DNA of 64,000 nt from Archangium sp. (GTDB lineage Bacteria > Myxococcota > Myxococcia > Myxococcales > Myxococcaceae), in contig JALHMW010000001.1 in assembly GCA_022843845.1 (NCBI GenBank), positions 248,001 to 312,000 of the forward strand, in the 5' to 3' direction. The first letter of the stretch is position 1. Each line of letters opens with the position of its first letter. Below, one piece after another: positions 4,158 through 34,127 of this stretch. Under the pieces are notes generated by a model. That model was not told where the DNA came from. It ran no database searches and saw nothing but the letters and a program-made list of their open reading frames with translations. A program made the translations under genes and the position numbers.

Positions 4158-5126
4158 TTACTTCGAGGCCTTCACGGCGGCCTGCAGCTCCGGCAGGGCC
4201 TTGAAGAGGTCGGCCACGAGGCCGTAGTCGGCGACCTGGAAGATGGGCGCGTCGCCGTCCTTGTTGATGGCGACGATCGTCTTGGAGCCCTTCATGCCGG
4301 CGATGTGCTGGATCGCGCCCGAGATGCCGGCCGCGATGTAGAGCGAAGGGGCAACGACCTTGCCCGTCTGACCGACCTGCAGATCGTTCGGCTGCCAGCC
4401 CGCATCGCACACCGCGCGCGAGGCCCCGACCGCAGCGCCCAGCTCGTCAGCCAGGCCGTTGACGTCCTTGAAGTCGCCCTTGGTGCCGCGGCCACCGGCC
4501 ACGACGATCTTCGCCTCGGTGAGCGCCGGGCGGGCCGACTTCACTTCCTTGAACGAGACGACCTTCTGCAGCGCCTTCGCCGGAGCCGCGGGCGAGAACG
4601 CCTTCACTTCGCCGGCGCCCGACTTCTCCGCGAGGGGGAACTCGGTGGTGCGCGCGGTGAAGCACTTGATGGGCGTGCCGAGCTTCACCGTGGCGATGAC
4701 GGCGCCGGCCCACATCGGGCGGGTCAGCTGCAGATCGGCGGCAGACGAGCCGACGACGCCGAGGATCTCGGACGCCATGGCGGCCTTGAGGCGCGCGGCG
4801 ATGCGCGGCATCACGTCGCGACCGGCCTGGGTCGCCGCGGCGCCGACGTACTCGGCCTTGATGGCGACGGCGATCTCCGCCACGGCGGGCGCGACGACGT
4901 CAGCGGTGAACTGGGCGAGGTGCGCGGCGCTGCCGGCGTGAACGATCTTCACCCCGTACTCCTTCACGGTGTTGGCGAGGGCCGAGGCGTCTTTCGCGAG
5001 GACGACGGCGTGCAACTCTCCGCCCGTCTTGGCGGCGATCTGCTGACCGGCGGTGAGGGCGTTGAGGGTGGCCTTGCGGAGCGAACCGTCAGGCTGGGCT
5101 TCGACGACGATGAGAACGTTGGACAT
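4158..5126 (-). CDS. etfA: Electron transfer flavoprotein alpha subunit
   Basis: The protein has 322 residues. The N-terminal domain starts [14 protein letters not shown], and the C-terminal FAD-binding domain contains [32 protein letters not shown] and ADYGLVADL, all characteristic of EtfA. With EtfB it accepts electrons from acyl-CoA dehydrogenases and passes them to ETF-quinone oxidoreductase. AGGAA sits upstream of the ATG. It lies 36 bases after etfB on the same strand, in the usual etfB-etfA order. Confidence 0.97.
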
Positions 5127-5162
5127 GGTGTGAGTTCCTTTTTCAGTCGGGTCGAAGGCAGG

Positions 5163-5969
5163 TCAGATGACCTTGGCCTCGGTCTTGAGCTTGTCCACCA
5201 GCGCGGCGATGTCGGGCACCTTGATGCCGGCCTTGCGGGCGGGCGGGTGCTCCATCTTCGTCACGGTGATCTTCGAGGTGCCATCCACGCCGAGCGTGGC
5301 GGGCGTGTGCTCTTCGATGGGCTTCGACTTCGCCTTCATGATGCCCGGGAGCGACGCGTAGCGCGGCTGGTTGAGGCGCAGGTCGGTGGTGACGACGCAC
5401 GGCATGGTGCACTCGATCGTCTCGAGCCCGCCGTCGACCTCTCGCACCACCGTCAACGTCTTCGCGTCGGCCGAGAGCTTGAGCGCAGGCTGCTTCGACT
5501 TCTCCGCCTCGGACTCCATCGACTCTTCCTTCGAGGCGAACGTGGCCTGCGACCAGCCGAGCCACTCGGCGAGGTACTGGCCCACCTGGTTCTGATCGTC
5601 GTCGATGGCCTGCTTGCCGAGGACGGCGAGGTCAGGCTTCTCCTTCTCGATCACCTTCTGCAGGCAGCCGGCGATCGTCATCTGATCGAGCGGGCCGGCG
5701 TGGTTGACCCAGATGGCCTTCGTCGCGCCCATCGCCAGCGCGTGGCGGAGCTGCTCGTGCACGTCCTTGGTGCCGACCGAGACGACGACGACCTCGCCGC
5801 CGCCGTGCTTGGCGACCAGCCGCAGCGCCTCTTCGACGCCGATCTCATCGAACGGGTTGATCTTGTATTTGAGGCCTTCGAGGACGATCCCGTTTCCCTG
5901 GGCGTTCACCTTGATCTTCGACTCGTAGTCTTCGACCCGCTTGGCGGTGACGAGGATCTTGATTGGCAT
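5163..5969 (-). CDS. etfB: Electron transfer flavoprotein beta subunit
   Basis: This 268-residue EtfB begins MPIKILVTAKRVEDYESKI. The start has a strong GGAGGG ribosome site and is preferred over an in-frame ATG 30 bases upstream. Recognisable segments are NPFDEIGVEEALRL, the AMP/ADP-binding region ALAMGATKAIWV, and LGKQAIDDDQNQVGQYLAEWLG. It forms the ETF heterodimer with the next gene. The acyl-CoA dehydrogenase lies just upstream on the same strand, so the three probably act together in fatty-acid or branched-chain acyl-CoA oxidation. Confidence 0.96.
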   Translation of the reverse strand: MPIKILVTAKRVEDYESKIKVNAQGNGIVLEGLKYKINPFDEIGVEEALRLVAKHGGGEVVVVSVGTKDVHEQLRHALAMGATKAIWVNHAGPLDQMTIAGCLQKVIEKEKPDLAVLGKQAIDDDQNQVGQYLAEWLGWSQATFASKEESMESEAEKSKQPALKLSADAKTLTVVREVDGGLETIECTMPCVVTTDLRLNQPRYASLPGIMKAKSKPIEEHTPATLGVDGTSKITVTKMEHPPARKAGIKVPDIAALVDKLKTEAKVI

Positions 5970-5995
5970 GCGAGGGCCCTCCAGTGGCCGAGCGT

Positions 5996-6038
5996 GCATC
6001 GCATGACGCGATGCGGCGCTGTTGACTTAGGGGTCAAC
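5996..6038 (-). promoter_or_regulatory. Two perfect inverted repeats in the acyl-CoA dehydrogenase-etfB gap
   Basis: Within the 125-base gap lie GCATCGC-N5-GCGATGC (5996-6014) and GTTGAC-N6-GTCAAC (6021-6038). The first could fold as an RNA hairpin in the etfB leader and the second looks like an operator-type dyad. Neither has a T-run, so a simple terminator is less likely. Function is inferred from symmetry alone. Confidence 0.4.
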
Positions 6039-6094
6039 GAACACTGCGGCAAGCGGAAATCGAGGTGGGCGGAGGGTCGAAACGACAGCGCTGA

Positions 6095-7237
<1,143 letters not shown>

Positions 7238-7396
7238 GCGCACCTCGTAACACACCAACTCCAGAGCGCCGCGACGGTTTGGGCGCGCGGACAGCAGAGC
7301 AGCTACAGTCATCGAAGACATTGACTCGGCATCGCGCCGGGCGAGACTCGCGGGCCGCGCAGAGGTCTCGTTTCGAGCGCACCAAGGGAGCAGTTC

Positions 7397-24841: not shown

Positions 24842-25609
24842 CTACTCGCCTCGAAACCGCGGCGCGCGCTTCTCGAGGATCGAGAGCCGGCCCTCGGCCG
24901 CGTCGGCGCTGTTGAACGAACGTCGACGCACCGCCTGGTAGTCGGCCAGCGCTGCGTCTGACACCTCGCCATGCGAGAGCAACGACAGCCCCTGCTTGAG
25001 GCCCGCGACCGCCAGCGGCGCATTGCCGGCAAGCTCGGTGCACAAGCGCTCGGCCTCGGCGACCGGCGCGTCGGAAACGGTGTCGACGAGGCCACGGCGC
25101 AGGGCTTCGTCGGCCGTGACTCTTCGGCCGGTCAGGAACAGGTACCGCGTCGTCGCGTCACCGACCTTCGCGCGGAAGCGATCGAGCCCGTTGAGCGAGT
25201 ACACGACGCCGAGGCGCGCGGGCGGCATCGACAGCACGGCGCGCGCGCCCGCGACGCGGAAGTCACACGCGAGGGCGAGCTCACAGGCCGCGCCAAAGGC
25301 CGGCCCATCGATGGCGGCGACGCTCGGCGCCGGGTGATGCATCAGGCGATCGAGCACCTCGCTCAGCCGCTCGTCGGGCAGCCGCTCGCCTTCACCGTAC
25401 GTCGACAGATCGTTGAGATCCCACCCGGCGCTGAAGATGCCGTCGCCCTCGCCAAGCACGAGGAAGGCGCGCACGCCCGAGGCCTGCGTGACAGCGGCAT
25501 CGAGCTGCTGAAGCAGCGTGGAGTCGATGGCGTTCTTCCGACCCGGGTTCGAGAGCGTCAACGCCCGCACCCCGCCCGCCCGATCTTCGACGCGCAGCGC
25601 GGCCGGCAC
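24842..25609 (-). CDS. Crotonase-fold (enoyl-CoA hydratase/isomerase family) protein
   Basis: This 255-residue protein starts at a GTG three bases after the biotin-carrier stop. The oxyanion-hole segments IFSAGWDLNDLS and IDGPAFGAACELALACDFRVA are clear, and the Glu in CELAL corresponds to the first catalytic Glu of crotonase. The position of the second catalytic Glu (normally PE) is Pro in LSMPPARLGVVYS. A standard two-Glu hydratase is therefore doubtful; isomerase, lyase or another crotonase reaction is possible. The tight coupling to biotin-carrier and biotin-carboxylase genes suggests acyl-CoA metabolism such as amino-acid or odd-chain breakdown. Confidence 0.88.
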   Translation of the reverse strand: MPAALRVEDRAGGVRALTLSNPGRKNAIDSTLLQQLDAAVTQASGVRAFLVLGEGDGIFSAGWDLNDLSTYGEGERLPDERLSEVLDRLMHHPAPSVAAIDGPAFGAACELALACDFRVAGARAVLSMPPARLGVVYSLNGLDRFRAKVGDATTRYLFLTGRRVTADEALRRGLVDTVSDAPVAEAERLCTELAGNAPLAVAGLKQGLSLLSHGEVSDAALADYQAVRRRSFNSADAAEGRLSILEKRAPRFRGE

Positions 25610-25850: not shown

Positions 25851-27200
25851 TCAGGGCTTCGCGTGGTGTTCAAGGAACTTCGTGTCGAGGCGGCCGGCGA
25901 CGAAGGCCTCGGCCTCGAGGATGCGCAGGTGCAGCGGCACGTTGTGCTTGATGCCTTCGATGCGGAAGTTCGAGAGCGCTTCTTTCGCGCGAGCAATCGC
26001 CTGGGCGCGGGTGTCACCCGTGATGATCAGCTTGGCGATCATCGGGTCGTAGTTCGGCGTCACCGTGTTGCCTTCGGCGTAGCCCGCGTCGAGGCGCACG
26101 CCGGGCCCCGTGGGCGGCTGGAACACCTTGAGCGGCCCGGGTGACGGGAAGAACTTCACCGGGTCCTCCGCGTAGATGCGGAACTCGAGCGCGTGGCCCT
26201 TTCGGGTGATCTCGCTCTGCTGCAGCGTCAACGTCTCTCCGGCCGCGATGCGGAACTGCCAGCCGATGAGATCGACGCCGGTGGTGAGCTCGGTGACCGG
26301 GTGCTCGACCTGCAGCCGCGCGTTCATCTCGATGAAGTAGACCTTGCCCTCGGAGTACAGCAGCTCGACCGTACCGGCGTTGGCGTAGCCGAAGGCCTTC
26401 GCGGCTTTGAGGCCGGCGTCGAAGAGCTGCTGGCGCACGTCGGCGTTCTGGCCATCGAGGAAGAGCGGGCTGCCGGCCTCTTCGACCACCTTCTGGTGCC
26501 GGCGCTGAATCGAGCACTCGCGCTCGAGGATGTGGAGCGTGTGCCCTTTGAGATCGCCGAGGATCTGCACCTCGAGGTGGCGAGGCGCGGCGAAGTAGCG
26601 CTCGAGGTAGACGGTGTCGCGGCTGAAGGCGGCGCGCGCGCGATCGACGCAGGCGCGGAACACCTTCTCGAGCTCGGCGGGCGTGTTGGCGACGGCCATG
26701 CCGATGCCGCCTCCACCACCCGCGGCCTTGCAGAGGATCGGGTAGCCAATGCGCTCGGCCTCGGCGAGCGCGGTCGCGACGTCGGGTATGGTGTCTTTCG
26801 AGCCCGGAACGATCGGCACGCCGGCCTCGGCGACCAGGCGGCGCGCCTCGCTCTTGTCCTTCATGCGCAGCATCGCCTCGGGCGGCGGGCCAACGAAGGC
26901 GATGCCGTTGTCGGCGACCGTCTTCGCGAACTCGGCGTTCTCCGAGATGAAGCCGTAGCCGGGGTGAATCGCCTCGGCCTTCGTCTGCTTCGCCGCTTCC
27001 AGAAGCGCCGCGACGTTCAGGTAGCTGTCCTTCGCGGGCGCAGGCCCGAGGCGCACGGCCTCGTCGGCTTCCTTCACGAACGGCAGCTCGGCGTCGGCGT
27101 CGGAGTACACGGCGACGGTCTGCATGCCCATGCCGCGGGCAACGGTGATGATGCGGCGGGCGATCTCTCCACGATTGGCGACGAGGATCTTCTTGAACAT
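25851..27200 (-). CDS. accC: Biotin carboxylase subunit of an acyl-CoA/acetyl-CoA carboxylase
   Basis: This protein starts MFKKILVANRGEIARRI and has 449 residues, the normal AccC length. It has the ATP-grasp layout: HPGYGFISENAEFA, the Gly-rich loop KAAGGGGGIGM, ERECSIQRRHQKVVEEAG and EMNARLQVEHPVTE, the last holding the metal and catalytic residues. It carboxylates the biotin on the carrier encoded next. GAGAGG sits just before the ATG. Whether the complete enzyme works on acetyl-CoA, propionyl-CoA or another acyl-CoA depends on a carboxyltransferase that is elsewhere. Confidence 0.95.
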   Translation of the reverse strand: MFKKILVANRGEIARRIITVARGMGMQTVAVYSDADAELPFVKEADEAVRLGPAPAKDSYLNVAALLEAAKQTKAEAIHPGYGFISENAEFAKTVADNGIAFVGPPPEAMLRMKDKSEARRLVAEAGVPIVPGSKDTIPDVATALAEAERIGYPILCKAAGGGGGIGMAVANTPAELEKVFRACVDRARAAFSRDTVYLERYFAAPRHLEVQILGDLKGHTLHILERECSIQRRHQKVVEEAGSPLFLDGQNADVRQQLFDAGLKAAKAFGYANAGTVELLYSEGKVYFIEMNARLQVEHPVTELTTGVDLIGWQFRIAAGETLTLQQSEITRKGHALEFRIYAEDPVKFFPSPGPLKVFQPPTGPGVRLDAGYAEGNTVTPNYDPMIAKLIITGDTRAQAIARAKEALSNFRIEGIKHNVPLHLRILEAEAFVAGRLDTKFLEHHAKP

Positions 27201-27252
27201 GGGCCTCTCGAGCGGGACGCGCACCGTACCACGCGCGATTCCCGTCACTTGG

Positions 27253-27281
27253 CGAATACCCACGGCCCCGCGGCGTGACAA
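27253..27281 (-). promoter_or_regulatory. Putative sigma-70-type promoter for the biotin carboxylase operon
   Basis: On the minus strand TTGTCA (5 of 6 to the -35 consensus) and TATTCG (3 of 6 to the -10) are 17 bases apart. The -10 lies about 53 bases before the carboxylase ATG. The match is moderate and GC-rich genomes give few such pairs by chance in gaps, but nothing else confirms it. Confidence 0.4.
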
Positions 27282-27335
27282 CCGCTTTCCCGTTGCCGTT
27301 CGACCGAAAGTGGATCGACGCGGCGACCGCGAGGT

Positions 27336-27728
27336 ATGAGGCGGCCGATGCCGCGCCGTCGCTCCAAGCCCGCTCAGGTGTACTCGCTCGCCGAGGCCCG
27401 ACTCGCCCGACGGCTGACGACCTACCGCGAACGGCTCGAGCGCGTCATTCGCTCCAACCGGCGCGCGATCGGCAAGCTGTACACGTCGGGCTCGCTGTTC
27501 ACGAAGGCCGGCGCACGTGCTGGGCGAGATCTGCTGACGGCGCACGAGCACCTGCTCCGCGTCGTCACCCTGCTCGAGCGGTTCGGCAACGTGGGCGACG
27601 TGCCCGCGCCGAAGTCGTCGAAGGAGATCGAGGCGGTCTTCGTCGAGCTCGACACCCTGCTCGACCGCACCGGAGAGCTGACGGCACAGACGTCGTTGTT
27701 GATGGGCGATCTCAAGCCCGAGCGGTGA
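27336..27728 (+). CDS. Small helical protein of unknown function
   Basis: It has 130 residues if the first ATG is used; an ATG 12 bases later has GAGG at better spacing and may be the true start. The basic N-terminus (MPRRRSKPAQ) is followed by long amphipathic helices rich in Arg, Leu and Glu (RLARRLTTYRERLERVIRSN; LLTAHEHLLRVVTLLERFG), suggesting a helical bundle or coiled coil. No signal or membrane segment is seen. I do not recognise the family. The gene is divergent from the carboxylase and convergent with fadL. Confidence 0.65.
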   Translation: MRRPMPRRRSKPAQVYSLAEARLARRLTTYRERLERVIRSNRRAIGKLYTSGSLFTKAGARAGRDLLTAHEHLLRVVTLLERFGNVGDVPAPKSSKEIEAVFVELDTLLDRTGELTAQTSLLMGDLKPER

Positions 27729-27766
27729 GTCTCGAGGCGCGGGAGGTCTCAACCTCAGCCGCCTTC

Positions 27767-27846
27767 ATCGCGTGACGCAGCGGCTCGAGCTCCTCGGCGA
27801 CTGGTGCGACTCGATCAGGCGATCGGCCGCTGTGGCATCACGCGGT
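27767..27846. terminator. Long imperfect stem-loop between convergent genes
   Basis: CGCGTGA (27769-27775) pairs with TCACGCG (27838-27844), and CAGCGGC (27778-27784) pairs with GCCGCTG (27826-27832). They are separated by an internal loop, and the terminal loop is about 41 bases. The structure fills most of the 120-base gap between the small helical-protein gene and fadL. It may end transcripts from both sides; no T-run is present on either strand. Confidence 0.45.
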
Positions 27847-27848
27847 GA

Positions 27849-29045
27849 TCACCAGCGGTAGCCGGCGTTGAGGCCGACCACCTGCGCGCTGCCCGAGTAG
27901 GTGCCGCTGAACCCCGGCGCCGTGCTCGCCTGCGGGACGAGAATGACGAACTGGTAGCCAGCGTCGAGGTTGAGCCCGAACTCGAAGCGGTAGCCGACGC
28001 CTGCACAGAAGCGCACGCGTGAGGCGTCAGGGAGATCCGGAGTCAGCGTGTCGGTCGGCGTCGCGGCTTCGTCGTAGACGGCGCCGAGCCGCGCCTGAAT
28101 GCGGTTGGTGACGTCGTACTCCGCGCCCAGGTGCACCGACATGGTGTCGCGCCACCGCTTCGGCAACGGGTTGTCGAGGTCCTTGCTCTCGAAGTCGATG
28201 AAGAGCTGGCGGAACGAGCTCCAGGTGATGACGTTCAGGTCGAGGCCGACGCGCAGCCGCGGCGTTGCCTTGAAGCCGAGGCCGACCGTCGCGACGTCGG
28301 GCATCGTGACGCTGGCGATGATGGGTTGATCGGCGAGGCGCGACTGGAACTCTGGAGGCACGTTGCCAAAGTGCGCGCGGCCCGAGAACCGCAACGGCAC
28401 GTTGGAGCGCCAGGTGAACCCGAACGTGAGCCGATCCTCCACGATGGTGCCCTGCACGCCTGCATTCCAGCCCACGCCCCACGCGTCTCCGCCGAGCGAG
28501 ACCTTGCCTTCGGAATCGATGAACGGCAGCGCGCGCTCGATGGCGACGGTGCCGCGGAGGATCTGCAGGCCCGCGCCGATCTTGAACCGTGGGTGAATGC
28601 GGTACGCGATCGTCGGGTTGAAGGCGAACGTCTGCACGTTCGATGACAGGGCGCGTCCCCTGCCCTCCCAGCCGTCGGGCCACGTCGCGCCGGCGCCGAA
28701 GGGGTTGAAGATGCCGACCCCGATCGAGAGATCGTCGGTGATGCCCCAGGCGACGTTGAGGTTGATGGGCGTCGAGAGCCGCGTGAGCGTCTGGCTGCTG
28801 ACGCCCGTCGTGTCGGAGGTGAAGACGACGGCAGGGAGCACGATCGTGAGCCCAGCCTGTACGTCGAAGCCCTTTCGGCCAGCGAGGCCGGCGGGGTTGT
28901 AGACGATCGCCGAGGCGTCATCGGTCAGCGCCGTCACCGCGATGCCCATGCCGGCCGCGCGCGCGTGGTGCGTCTCGAGGCGGAAGCCGCTGGCGAACGA
29001 CGTCGCGGCGATCAGGAGCCCGAGGAGGAGTGCAGTTCGCGTCAT
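27849..29045 (-). CDS. fadL: FadL/OmpP1-family outer-membrane fatty-acid transporter
   Basis: This 398-residue protein has signal peptide MTRTALLLGLLIAATSFASG. The mature start FRLETHHARAAGMG and the hatch-region signature DDASAIVYNPAGLAG are hallmarks of the FadL/OmpP1/TodX family, and the body is a beta-barrel ending in an aromatic C-terminal strand (VVGLNAGYRW). FadL passes long-chain fatty acids through the outer membrane. The ATG overlaps the stop of the VolA-like lipase as ATGA, so the two are translationally coupled. The same pairing is known from Vibrio, where the lipase releases fatty acids for FadL uptake. Confidence 0.93.
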   Translation of the reverse strand: MTRTALLLGLLIAATSFASGFRLETHHARAAGMGIAVTALTDDASAIVYNPAGLAGRKGFDVQAGLTIVLPAVVFTSDTTGVSSQTLTRLSTPINLNVAWGITDDLSIGVGIFNPFGAGATWPDGWEGRGRALSSNVQTFAFNPTIAYRIHPRFKIGAGLQILRGTVAIERALPFIDSEGKVSLGGDAWGVGWNAGVQGTIVEDRLTFGFTWRSNVPLRFSGRAHFGNVPPEFQSRLADQPIIASVTMPDVATVGLGFKATPRLRVGLDLNVITWSSFRQLFIDFESKDLDNPLPKRWRDTMSVHLGAEYDVTNRIQARLGAVYDEAATPTDTLTPDLPDASRVRFCAGVGYRFEFGLNLDAGYQFVILVPQASTAPGFSGTYSGSAQVVGLNAGYRW

Positions 29046-32000
29046 GGCGTCACCGGAGCGTTCGCAGGCGTCATGCCAGTCGAGAGGAACTGCGCGAGCT
29101 GCGACTGCGCCACGAAGGTCGCGCACGTGCTGGCGTTGAACGACATCGTCGTCGCGTCGCACTCCGGGTTGATGTCAGGCGTGCCGGGAGGCCCTCCGGG
29201 GTTGAGCAGGAAGCCGTGCCGCGCGGCAGCCGGCCAGGTCGTCGGGAAGCGTCCAGCCGTTGCGGTGCCGGTGTGCGAGGCGAACTGGAACCACGAGAGC
29301 CGCGACGCGTTGGACGACCGAAGCCCCGCGCGGAGCAGCTTCGTGGTTCCGGCGTTCGGCCAGCTTGTGTCGCCTTCGACCGACGAGACGAAGACGCGGC
29401 GGTTGGCGTTGGACGACTCGAGCGCGGCGCGGATCAGGTTCTGCGGATCGGCGGGGTCGAGGATGGTCTTCGCGAGCACGAGGAAGGCGTCGAAGCTGGC
29501 CGTGCCTGGGCTGGAGCCGACGCCTGCGAGCAACACCGTGCGCTGGGCGGTGAAGGCTGGTGACGTCAGCACCGCCTCGAGCGGGTCCACGCCGGGCACG
29601 TTGAGCGCGACGCGCGACGGAATCGGGTTCGCCGCCGCAAAGACGGCGCCAGTGAAACTGCCGACGCTCTGACCGACGACGTGCACCTGCGTGGCGTCGA
29701 GCGTGCCGCGCATGGCGCTGGTGAGCGAGGCGTTGAGCGAGCGAGGCCCGGTCGCGGCCAGGACCCGGAGCACCTGCGCGAGATCGGCCGCGCCTGCGTG
29801 GCGCAGGTTGTCTCGCGTGGCGAAGAGGTTCGAGGCGTCGACGAACCGGTTCCCGCTGATGGCCGGGGTTCCGTACAGGACGAACGTCGGAGCGCTCCGC
29901 ACGAACGAGCCACCTTCACAGCGCCCCGTGGCCGTGAGGCACCGCCCCTGTCCGAGCGTGAAGCAGTCGGCCGGAGCCGCGGCGCACTGGCTGGCGTTGG
30001 CCGGAACGCGGGCGACACACCGGCCCGTCGTCGCGCTGCACTCCTGGTTCACGGAATCCGCGCACGCCGCGTCGGGGCTCGCGACGCCTCGACAGTCGGA
30101 GCGGTCACCATGGAACGGCGCATCGATCGCGATCGTCGCGACGCCTTCCACCGCGAACGCGTCGGCGACGAAGAGCACGTCTGCGCGTGACCGGCCCAGG
30201 CCATGGTTGAAGATGGCGACCGGAAAACCAGCCGGCGGCACCGGCCCTGTCGGCAACGTCACCGTGAAGAGCGCGGCGCGGGTCTGCCACTGCGACGGAT
30301 CGGCGTTGAAGGTTCCACCCGGGCCGGTCAGCACGTGCGGCAGGGTCAGCTCACCTTCGAGAAGGCTCCCGATCGCCGAGTTCTTGACGCCCGCAGCGAT
30401 CAACGCCGGTCGGGTCACTGCGCTGGTGTCGACCAGCCACTCCACCGTGGTCGGCAGCGTCGAGGCGTTCACGCCCGCGGTGATCGCGCGAAGCGGCGCC
30501 GTCACGCTCTGCGTCGTGAAACAGAACCCGAGCGCCATGGAGCTTCGTGGACGACCGGCCGCTTCGAGCCGGTCGAGACAGCCACGAAACCGGCGACGCA
30601 CGAACTCCAACTGCGCCGCCTGCGTGTTCGACACGAGCGGAATCGTGCTGGCACCCGTCGCGTCGACGAGCGGGTTCCTCGAGCGGACGAGCGCGAAGGT
30701 CGGTGAGGCCATGACGGCGCGATTTCGAACGTCGCGGGTCTCGGTGGTGACGAACGCTCCGTACCGGCTGGCTTCGTCGAGCGGCAGCTGCGGCACCCAC
30801 TGCAGCTGCTCCGGTTGGTCGATCACCCCGGCGTCGTTCATCGAGGACGCGCAGTTGAGGCAAACGCGCACCGAGGGCAGTCGCGCGCCACCGTCGGCGA
30901 GCGTGGCGGGAGGGCCGTCGAGCCTGATCAACCCGGCTCCAGTGGCCAGCGAGCCCGCGTCGATCGCGCCGACGTCGAGCGCACCGAGGAGCGTCGAGTT
31001 CTCACTCACCATCGGTGCGGTCGTCGAGAAGCCGTCGAGCGTGTTGAGGCCACCGAGGAGCTGCGCCTGGGCCACGCTCGCGCCGCCAGGAATCGGGAGT
31101 GACAACCGGACACCGGGCACCGCGTCGTCTCCGGGCGCGCCGCCATCAGGCAGCAGGGCGAGCTGCGTTCCGCCATCGACCACCGTGTTTCCGCGCAGCA
31201 GCTGGTTGTTCGGGAACGGCATGACGCCCTGGGCGAGATCGAAGGTGAGCTCGGGCTGATCGACGGTCCGGAACACCCACAGCCCCGCGATGTCCTCCCG
31301 CAAGATGCCGGTCGACTCGAGTGAGTCGAAGACCGGCTTCAGCGAACGCCGCACCGGCTCGAGGCTGATCGCCTGCGCGTCGCTCAACAGCGTGACCGAG
31401 CGACACGACGGGCCGACCGCTCCGCACTGCGCATCGACGAGCGAGTTCGAGAGCCGGGCGAACGAGAAGGCCTGCGACGCGACCAGCGGCTTGCCGGTGA
31501 GTGACCGAATGCCTGCAGGTCCACCCAGCACCACCACGGCGATCGAGCGGCCCTTGCCCCAGCTCCCGTTGGGCGGCGCGACGCTGAACCGGCTCGTCGC
31601 GGCATCGAACGAGATGACCGGAGCGCCCACCAGCGCCGGCCCGGAGAGCACCTGCACGCGCACGGTGTTGGTGTTCACGCTGGCGGGATCGACCGCGCCA
31701 ACGACCTCTCCCGTGGCGATCGACGCGACGGGGAAGCCGTTCAGGGTGTTCAGGTAGTCGGTGATGAACTCGGCGTATGCAGGTGAGGCTCCGGGCGGCA
31801 CGGGAGCGCTGACTCGCCCCGTCGCGGGGTTGATCGCGAGATCTGACGGCGTCGGCACTCGAGGCGGCGTCGCGGATGGGTCGAACACCAGCTCAGGCTG
31901 ATCGACCGTCGAGAACACCCACGCGCCCGCGACATCGTGCCGGCGAACGCCCTCTCCTTCGAGTCGATCGAGCAGCGGCTTGTACGTGCGGCGCAGGCTC

Positions 32001-33322
32001 TCGAGCGCGATCGCCTGGTTGGTGCTGATGGGCGCTGCCTTCACGAACGAGTTGCACGACGGCCCGAGGACTTCACAGTCGACCAGCGGCGCTGCGCTGC
32101 GCACGAGAGCCCAGACCTGACTGCCGACCAGTCGTTTCCCTCCGACGCCCTTCACGCCCGAGTCGCCACCGAGCACGACGACGCCGATCGTCCTCGCGCC
32201 GCCCCACGAGCCGCCAGCGGGCGTCAGCACCAGGCGCTCGAGCTGCGAGCTCCACGTGACCGTCGGTGGCGCGGCCAGCGGAGCCCCCGCCAGCGAGATC
32301 ACACGAACGGTCCGCTCGGTGATCGTCGAGGGATCGATGGGCTGCTGCGCGATGTCCACTCCTGCGCTGGTGGTCGCAGGAAACCCGTTGAGGGTGTTGA
32401 GCCAGGTGCGCGTCCACTCCTGCGCTGCTGGTGACGACGTTGGGTCGATCGACGACGCGACCAGCCCCTGCCTGATGGCGAGGTTGTTCGGCGAGGGCAC
32501 GCGCGGCGGAGACGCCGACGGATCGAAGACGAACGACGCCGAGTCGTCGATGCGGAAGGTCCACAGCAGCGCGAGGTCGGCGCGCCGAACGCCGCTGGTG
32601 ACGAGGAAGTCGATCGCCGGCTTGTACTTGCGGCGCAGCGTCTCGAGGCGCCTGGCGGTCGCGACCTGATCGGCCACGCGGCGCGCGGGATCCTCCGTGA
32701 TCGACGAAGGGACGATCTCGGTCGTGAGCCGGCACGCGCTCGAGGCGAGATCGTCGTTGGGGCAGTCGATCAGCTCCCCTTCGTTGCGAATGAACGACCA
32801 CGTCGCGCTGCCGACACACGCGAGGCCCGACTTCGCGCGCACGCCGTTGACGCCTCCGATGATCGCGACCGCGTAGCGATGGCCCGGAGTCCACCCGCCC
32901 ACCGGCGGAGCGATGGCCACCTGCCCCGGCGCCGCCACGTTCGTCGAGTCCGAGGTCACGCGGGTCACCTCGACGGTGGCGTTGTTCGCGCTGAGATCGA
33001 TGACGCGCACGGTGGCAGGCGTCACCGTCGCCGGGTCGAGCGGGTGCGTGAAGGTGACCGACGCTCCGGCCGCAGCGGGGAAGCCGTTGAGCGTATTGAG
33101 CCACCCGTAGAACCACGTGTCGGCGGCGCTCGCGTCGAGGGGGACTGGAACGCTCAACAAACCGGTCGTCGGGTTCGTCGCGAGATCGTTCGGCGAGGGC
33201 ACGACGGGAATCGCCGCCGAAGGGTCGAACCGCGCGACGACGAACTCCCCTGGAGGCGTGTTGGGAATCTCGGGCGCGCAGGCGACCGAGACCACCACGA
33301 GTGCAGCGAGCAGACGCTTCAC
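29042..33322 (-). CDS. VolA-like surface lipase lipoprotein with four tandem N-terminal modules
   Basis: This 1426-residue protein starts at GTG (GGGGGT upstream) with lipobox SVAC, Cys at residue 15. Residues 32-265, 266-479, 480-693 and 694-943 are four related modules. Each opens with FDP or FDL plus a P-[ST/F]-PN/D-N motif (PSPNDLA, PSPNNLA, PTPSDLA, PFPNNQL) and carries LNTLNGF or LNTLDGF. They resemble the Lipase_bact_N domain of VolA/Pla-1/cef lipases, which normally have one copy. The C-terminal alpha/beta-hydrolase has FNHGLGRSRAD, nucleophile Ser at about 1219 in VVGQSVGSF, a candidate acid in VEGDTSW and a His in FASHTG. A Cys-rich insertion (SVNQECSATTGRC) lies in the hydrolase. 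It probably cleaves lysophospholipids or lipids at the cell surface to feed FadL. Confidence 0.87.
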   Translation of the reverse strand: MKRLLAALVVVSVACAPEIPNTPPGEFVVARFDPSAAIPVVPSPNDLATNPTTGLLSVPVPLDASAADTWFYGWLNTLNGFPAAAGASVTFTHPLDPATVTPATVRVIDLSANNATVEVTRVTSDSTNVAAPGQVAIAPPVGGWTPGHRYAVAIIGGVNGVRAKSGLACVGSATWSFIRNEGELIDCPNDDLASSACRLTTEIVPSSITEDPARRVADQVATARRLETLRRKYKPAIDFLVTSGVRRADLALLWTFRIDDSASFVFDPSASPPRVPSPNNLAIRQGLVASSIDPTSSPAAQEWTRTWLNTLNGFPATTSAGVDIAQQPIDPSTITERTVRVISLAGAPLAAPPTVTWSSQLERLVLTPAGGSWGGARTIGVVVLGGDSGVKGVGGKRLVGSQVWALVRSAAPLVDCEVLGPSCNSFVKAAPISTNQAIALESLRRTYKPLLDRLEGEGVRRHDVAGAWVFSTVDQPELVFDPSATPPRVPTPSDLAINPATGRVSAPVPPGASPAYAEFITDYLNTLNGFPVASIATGEVVGAVDPASVNTNTVRVQVLSGPALVGAPVISFDAATSRFSVAPPNGSWGKGRSIAVVVLGGPAGIRSLTGKPLVASQAFSFARLSNSLVDAQCGAVGPSCRSVTLLSDAQAISLEPVRRSLKPVFDSLESTGILREDIAGLWVFRTVDQPELTFDLAQGVMPFPNNQLLRGNTVVDGGTQLALLPDGGAPGDDAVPGVRLSLPIPGGASVAQAQLLGGLNTLDGFSTTAPMVSENSTLLGALDVGAIDAGSLATGAGLIRLDGPPATLADGGARLPSVRVCLNCASSMNDAGVIDQPEQLQWVPQLPLDEASRYGAFVTTETRDVRNRAVMASPTFALVRSRNPLVDATGASTIPLVSNTQAAQLEFVRRRFRGCLDRLEAAGRPRSSMALGFCFTTQSVTAPLRAITAGVNASTLPTTVEWLVDTSAVTRPALIAAGVKNSAIGSLLEGELTLPHVLTGPGGTFNADPSQWQTRAALFTVTLPTGPVPPAGFPVAIFNHGLGRSRADVLFVADAFAVEGVATIAIDAPFHGDRSDCRGVASPDAACADSVNQECSATTGRCVARVPANASQCAAAPADCFTLGQGRCLTATGRCEGGSFVRSAPTFVLYGTPAISGNRFVDASNLFATRDNLRHAGAADLAQVLRVLAATGPRSLNASLTSAMRGTLDATQVHVVGQSVGSFTGAVFAAANPIPSRVALNVPGVDPLEAVLTSPAFTAQRTVLLAGVGSSPGTASFDAFLVLAKTILDPADPQNLIRAALESSNANRRVFVSSVEGDTSWPNAGTTKLLRAGLRSSNASRLSWFQFASHTGTATAGRFPTTWPAAARHGFLLNPGGPPGTPDINPECDATTMSFNASTCATFVAQSQLAQFLSTGMTPANAPVTP

Positions 33323-33410: not shown

Positions 33411-34127
33411 ATGAAGGTCATCGCCGTCTACGCAGGCATGTACGGGAAGGCGTTCACCAACGCGCTGGCGGCCATCGCGAAGAACCCGTGGACGTTGCTG
33501 TTGCCGATGGGCCTGGCGGTCACGTGGACCGTGCTGCGCATGATCCTCGGCTCGGTGCTCGACCCGTTCACGGGCGGCATGCTCATCAGCCTCGCGTACA
33601 GCGCCGCGCTCAGCATCTATTGCTTCTTCCTCGGCGGGCTCGTCGCGAACCAGAAGGTCGGGCTCGACCAGCTCCGCACCAGCATCGGCGCGTACTTCTG
33701 GTCGTGGATCAGCATCTTCTTCGTGCTCTGGGTGGTCGGGCTCGTGCTGGGGCCAGTGTTCAAGGCGAACCCTGATCTCGTGCTGCCCTACACCCTCGTG
33801 CAGGCGATCGCGCTGAACACCGTGCCCGAGACGATCTACCAGAAGGGCACGCGCGGCGGCATCGAGACGATCCAGCGCAGCTTCGGCTTCCTGCAGGAGA
33901 ACTGGATCGAGTGGTTCGTTCCCAACGGCCTGGTGCTCGGTGGTGTCTTCGCTGCGTCGGTGTTCGGTGCGGTGCTGATGGTGTTCGGCACGGTCGGCGC
34001 GGTCGTCAGCGGGCTGGTCGTCGGCGTGCTGCTCCACGTCTACGCGGTGTTCCGCGGCTTCCTCTACGAGGCCCTCGACGGCTCGACGCACCGCCAGCGC
34101 ATGTATCGCGCACGCTTCGGTAGCTAG
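33411..34127 (+). CDS. Membrane protein of unknown function
   Basis: The protein has 238 residues and about six hydrophobic segments, such as LLLPMGLAVTWTVLRMILG, SIYCFFLGGLVA and SIFFVLWVVGLVLGPVF. Segment order and the GTVGAVVSGLVVGVLLHVY ending resemble small integral membrane proteins of unknown function, and no catalytic motif stands out. It is divergent from the lipase gene with an 88-base gap. Its stop codon overlaps the stop of the opposite-strand sigma factor within a shared CTAG. Confidence 0.8.
   Translation: MKVIAVYAGMYGKAFTNALAAIAKNPWTLLLPMGLAVTWTVLRMILGSVLDPFTGGMLISLAYSAALSIYCFFLGGLVANQKVGLDQLRTSIGAYFWSWISIFFVLWVVGLVLGPVFKANPDLVLPYTLVQAIALNTVPETIYQKGTRGGIETIQRSFGFLQENWIEWFVPNGLVLGGVFAASVFGAVLMVFGTVGAVVSGLVVGVLLHVYAVFRGFLYEALDGSTHRQRMYRARFGS

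Follow-up and report, generated by a model that had tools for sequence, protein, structure and literature searches.

The fadL gene of Escherichia coli is not known to have a lipase partner gene. A FadL homologue of Vibrio cholerae, VCA0862, is encoded next to VolA, VCA0863 (PMC9496633), and published work on that pair describes an outer-membrane alpha/beta hydrolase lipoprotein of the TIGR03502 superfamily and proposes a cut-and-import logic. In Myxococcus xanthus, MXAN_7037 (OmpA) is followed by MXAN_7039, MXAN_7040 (FadL) and MXAN_7041 (cyclic nucleotide-binding) (PMC3222651, PMC5131308). Outer-membrane fractions yielded 34 peptides of MXAN_7039, which was named a putative lipoprotein yet listed among the beta-barrels, and 13 peptides of MXAN_7040 (PMC3222651). 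Strain LS3125, a mutant of MXAN_7040, did not incorporate alkyne-palmitate (PMC4048283).

We analyzed a lipase-FadL gene pair in a 64,000-nucleotide stretch of Archangium sp. DNA, hereafter the window. A preliminary description had given the coordinates of both genes and an ATGA overlap of the lipase stop with the FadL start, and these were exact (Table 1). Like the Vibrio pair, the locus encodes a TIGR03502-superfamily alpha/beta hydrolase lipoprotein beside FadL, for which the same logic can be proposed. Gene order and protein families are also those of MXAN_7039-MXAN_7040: in M. xanthus strain AM003 (locus L158) the genes read OmpA, lipase, FadL and cNMP-binding protein, which fits MXAN_7037-7041, and on this identification, made by order and family in AM003, MXAN_7039-MXAN_7040 is the pair orthologous to that of the window. 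Unlike the M. xanthus pair, which has two repeats and a gap of ~28 nt, the window pair has four repeats and the overlap.

Table 1 Features of the lipase-FadL pair and of neighboring genes in the window
Feature	Position	Strand	Details
Lipase lipoprotein, VolA/Pla-1-like	29042..33322	-	GTG start at 33322, 1426 aa; TIGR03502 E 1e-30, below cut-off
Lipoprotein signal peptide	33275..33322	-	Lipobox VSVAC (residues 11-15 region), ending in the predicted lipidated Cys
Repeats R1-R3	31253..33274	-	~Residues 17-264, 265-477, 478-690; Big_5-like, LNTLNGF motif in each
Repeat R4	30398..31252	-	~Residues 691-975; Lipase_bact_N-like, adjoins hydrolase; PF12262 weak
Alpha/beta hydrolase	29045..30397	-	Residues 976-1426; oxyanion HG 1040, S1219, D1318, H1369
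ATGA overlap, lipase stop and FadL start	29042..29045	-	Kept in 5/5 pair-bearing species of the genus
FadL-family outer-membrane channel	27849..29045	-	ATG at 29045, 398 aa; conserved N-terminal hatch ~residues 19-55, NPA 50-52
Divergent upstream gene	33411..34127		238 aa
Convergent downstream gene	27275..27775	+	
Biotin carboxylase	25851..27203	-	
Enoyl-CoA hydratase	24842..25609		
EtfAB and acyl-CoA dehydrogenase	4158..7321		

The lipase lipoprotein of the window

The lipobox, the lipase triad and the FadL signature named in the preliminary description were all recovered. The lipobox can be read directly from the sequence, and its Cys is kept across relatives. The mature protein would begin C-A-P-E-I-P-N, with neither a Lys at +2 nor an Ala at +7, the residues that in M. 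xanthus mark lipoproteins of the inner membrane or the matrix (PMC3222651). An LNTLxGF motif at residues 75, 308, 524 and 759 defines four repeats, of which R1 matches PF13205 (Big_5) with 25 bits, above the cut-off of 23.6, and R4 matches PF12262 weakly, with 17 bits (25 bits with frame neighbors). The catalytic S1219 lies within GQSVG, a GxSxG motif, and S1219, D1318 and H1369 are invariant in a phylum-wide alignment whose copies come mostly from FadL-linked loci. An insert with eight cysteines occupies hydrolase residues 1077-1135 and is strictly conserved among 13 active copies that were aligned more closely. In a predicted model of residues 478-1426 (pLDDT 89) the triad positions fall at the expected turns. 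The reading frame is intact in all relatives from the window's genus.

TIGR03502 (VolA/Pla-1) was the best family for this protein, at 106.6 bits. Profile positions 42-273 align to R4 and positions 441-570 to the hydrolase, showing homology of both the N-terminal and the catalytic halves, and no other family was matched as widely, all 22 members of a phylum-wide alignment matching it. The curated whole-protein cut-off of 383.9 bits was missed by the window lipase, and it was reached in none of 195 phylum genomes. We therefore rejected an identification as VolA; the family placement implied by the earlier term VolA-like held, and the protein is a distant, re-modeled relative of VolA/Pla-1. It differs from VolA in scoring only ~107 bits against the VolA/Pla-1 model, in the two to four repeat domains that precede the hydrolase in this group and in the eight-cysteine insert. 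Predicted catalytically dead members also occur among its myxobacterial relatives, and lysophospholipase activity and surface exposure are putative here. Three further, distant TIGR03502 relatives (~1030 aa) are encoded elsewhere in the window's genome (G000, contigs C23, C24 and C42), on contigs other than those carrying its two FadL-family genes.

The best structural matches of the hydrolase model were CE7 acetyl esterases (Z 24.7), followed by Lp-PLA2/PAF acetylhydrolase (Z 21.8). The fold does not define the substrate; its nearest solved structures are acetyl-ester (CE7) enzymes. These matches, together with the transport of aromatics by the FadL relatives TodX and CymD, would suit an enzyme that cleaves non-lipid esters, such as acetylated sugars or polyesters, and a channel that imports another hydrophobic product. 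The family placement with VolA/Pla-1 phospholipases and the import of palmitate by the orthologous FadL (PMC4048283) make this reading very improbable in our judgment.

The FadL channel and its junction with the lipase gene

The downstream gene matches PF03349 with E 1.3e-62 and 212 bits, against a gathering cut-off of 29.7, and a sequence search against solved FadL structures gave a best E of 1.5e-20. Its AlphaFold model, hatch included, superimposes on E. coli and Pseudomonas aeruginosa FadL (1T16, 3DWO) with TM 0.85-0.86. The window protein thus has the fold, hatch, NPA motif and Pfam family of these channels, although identity is only ~20%; N50 and A52 of the motif are invariant among aligned relatives. 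The PorV family NF033709 was also matched (1e-12), and BamG/PorV-type chains were among the fold-search matches, as would be expected if the barrel were a helper of the PorV/BamG kind, serving the surface display of the lipoprotein and not the import of fatty acids. However, the corresponding NCBIfam cut-offs were missed (NF033709, 48 bits versus 90; BamG, 32 versus 250), and BamG-type barrels gave TM 0.66-0.69, so that FadL fits far better (0.86 versus 0.67). The M. xanthus ortholog is, moreover, required for palmitate uptake (PMC4048283), and some genomes have FadL without the lipase (see below). On the fold score and the uptake phenotype we rejected the display helper as the best reading, and we regard it as very improbable.

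In the junction sequence GTGACGCCATGACG, the lipase ends GTG ACG CCA TGA and FadL begins ATG ACG CGA, the TGA and ATG sharing ATGA; no clear Shine-Dalgarno sequence precedes the FadL ATG in the junction sequence. Outside the window's genus the two genes lie side by side and are in most cases separated by 8 to 40 nt. The overlap, which suggests translational coupling, is confined to the window's genus in our sample; the coupling put forward in the preliminary description is thus backed by every one of the five species of the genus that have the pair and does not extend to the other sampled loci.

Upstream lies a divergent gene without a Pfam match at the limit used; its place beside the lipase is conserved within the genus (L034, L036, L037) and also in L043 and L073. 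Downstream, the next gene is convergent and 53-85% conserved in four relatives. A longer operon with the same-strand biotin carboxylase was considered, as an open reading frame extending to 27752 seemed adjacent, but the domain begins only near 27200, and the convergent gene separates it from FadL. Because of this convergent gene, the operon most likely consists of two genes. A scan for promoters and terminators found nothing above chance. Enoyl-CoA hydratase and biotin carboxylase genes stand just past the convergent gene. Own-genus loci and L043 carry them downstream as well, and genes of acyl-CoA metabolism may accompany the uptake pair. The acyl-CoA dehydrogenase and EtfAB genes to which the preliminary description had pointed are present, but they are 20 kb from the pair, and the former two are nearer.

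Distribution of the pair in the phylum

Relatives of the lipase were found in 124 of 147 genomes of the class and relatives of FadL in 111 of 145. In 30 of 40 class loci sampled with their flanks, the lipase gene is immediately followed, on the same strand, by FadL, and the gap runs from -7 nt (as estimated from the alignment; by start codon, -4 nt) to +84 nt. Of the remaining ten, three are truncated by a contig end or lie near one, and seven are FadL-less paralogues in genomes that each also have a paired copy. The same arrangement was found in 9 of 20 loci sampled across the phylum and in 36 of the 42 loci whose records name an organism, including Myxococcus, Corallococcus, Pyxidicoccus, Hyalangium and Citreicoccus; this named set shares species with the class set. 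The collection scan used a closer alignment, as a broad one was too divergent. Chance adjacency is excluded because the pairing recurs phylum-wide. The synteny check called for in the preliminary description therefore had a positive outcome: the lipase-FadL pair is real and phylum-wide, and not local to the window.

On the tree, FadL linkage requires a minimum of five changes. A second, paralogous pair was found in seven further loci, other FadL duplicates being solitary. Both genes are absent together from two genomes of the window's own genus (G131, G135) and from genus g7, and four genomes of genus g3 keep FadL and lack the lipase, so the two genes are separable. A search of plasmid records for relatives found none. 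Three loci were unusual in other respects. The FadL-linked lipases of L069 and L070, from another family of the order, are ~2000 aa with a long N-terminal part. In L140 (G068), FadL is broken into two frames beside an intact lipase, through a frameshift or a sequencing error. L152, in a record titled Comamonas sp. KCTC 72670, is a typical Myxococcus-group pair, and the label is probably wrong. A scan of genome contigs yielded matches in myxobacteria only, apart from a single record that is likely mislabeled.

Copies without the catalytic serine and the role of the pair

The catalytic serine is kept in 64 of the 66 FadL-linked copies on the tree. Both exceptions belong to the window's genus, where they represent two of the five pair-bearing species: L036 (G134) reads GVGLG and has the His changed to Ala, and L037 (G132) reads GHDVG. 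Each retains open frames, the repeats, FadL and the ATGA overlap with it. In the first three repeats the two are 68-81% identical to active copies, a level of conservation like that of the active copies themselves, and their FadL proteins are ~83% identical to that of the window. Their hydrolases have diverged to 51-58% identity, and to 54-57% when compared with the window, versus 65% for the active copy of G133. End branches of the hydrolase tree measured 0.55 and 0.40 for these two copies, against 0.15 for G133, or ~2-3 times those of active copies. Hydrolase dN/dS was 0.31-0.49 in the serine-less copies and 0.15-0.35 in active pairs, values that are rough because synonymous changes are near saturation; being below 1, the former indicate relaxed constraint and not neutrality. 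We predict that the G132 and G134 proteins are catalytically dead pseudo-lipases. Serine was also lost in one clade of FadL-less paralogues from large Myxococcus-type genomes (L040, L041, L042, L045, L055), and the tree requires a minimum of three changes to account for its loss. These five paralogues lack the oxyanion HG as well and are preceded by long D/A/G-rich linkers. Taken together, the serine-less copies of the genus and the unlinked paralogues suggest that the repeats may have a non-catalytic role.

Such a role could be general, the lipoprotein being mainly a non-catalytic partner of FadL whose repeats bind surface lipid or dock on the barrel and whose hydrolase is dispensable. The retention of frames, overlap, first three repeats and FadL in G132 and G134, alongside a hydrolase whose dN/dS is raised but still below 1, is what this would predict. 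Nevertheless, nearly all FadL-linked copies across the phylum have kept the serine, and G132 and G134 may be sisters, possibly recording one event and a decaying gene; we consider a general non-catalytic role quite unlikely. A narrower version, also unlikely though less easily set aside, is that in the window's genus the lipoprotein is losing its enzymatic function and becoming a non-catalytic co-receptor of FadL in the outer membrane: here the array has expanded to four repeats, two of five species have given up the serine and the overlap persists, and FadL would need the repeats and not catalysis.

The gene pairing, the outer-membrane detection and the uptake phenotype of MXAN_7040 make VolA-like scavenging the best mechanism, and we think it probable, with moderate confidence, that the two genes form an operon for importing the acyl chains of extracellular lipids in the manner of VolA-FadL. 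The lipase and FadL would probably be made from one transcript. After export the lipoprotein would receive its lipid anchor at the lipobox Cys and reach the outer membrane, the location shown for the M. xanthus ortholog, where it would presumably be displayed on the surface. Its repeats would probably keep the catalytic domain at a distance from the membrane, or act in binding to lipid or to FadL. The hydrolase, judging from its triad and fold, would cut acyl esters in a lipid located externally or in the outer leaflet. The freed fatty acid would then be handed over to the hatch-gated FadL barrel, for which the M. xanthus ortholog mutant has shown uptake. In favor of this mechanism, the triad and oxyanion motif are intact in the window copy, the serine is retained by 64 of 66 FadL-linked copies, the hydrolase model resembles esterases and Lp-PLA2, the channel has a true FadL fold, the pairing recurs, and G131, G135 and genus g7 lack both genes at once. 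Weighing against it are the missed TIGR03502 cut-off, the nearness of the fold to acetyl-ester enzymes, the two own-genus pairs without a nucleophile, the g3 genomes with FadL alone and the reported downregulation of MXAN_7040 in predation. The lipase-feeds-FadL logic of the preliminary description gains from the need for the orthologous FadL in fatty-acid uptake (PMC4048283), but leaves the predicted-dead lipases of two sister species unexplained.

The source of the lipid bears on a further alternative. The preliminary description had suggested scavenging of prey or host lipids, which found no support, and one published expression result speaks against a prey-lipid module: the FadL-like genes MXAN_7040 and MXAN_6116 were reported to be downregulated, not upregulated, in co-culture with prey (PMC9548883). 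That result would agree with a hydrolase acting on the lipids of the cell itself or its kin, in membrane remodeling, vesicles or lysed sisters, and not on foreign lipids. So would the movement of membrane-lipid acyl chains to lipid bodies in developing M. xanthus, which makes many lipolytic enzymes (PMC4048283). The M. xanthus fadL mutant, however, forms lipid bodies and develops normally (PMC4048283), which means that development can proceed without recycling through FadL, and we judge the own-lipid reading distinctly unlikely.

Under the scavenging mechanism, the known M. xanthus channel MXAN_7040 gains a predicted dedicated enzyme, MXAN_7039, and lipase-FadL coupling would be extended from Vibrio to a predatory phylum. 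The entry of complex lipids into myxobacteria, a route that the published predation transcriptome left open, becomes testable, and with the serine-less copies nature supplies a test of whether catalysis by the partner is required for FadL or its mere presence is enough.
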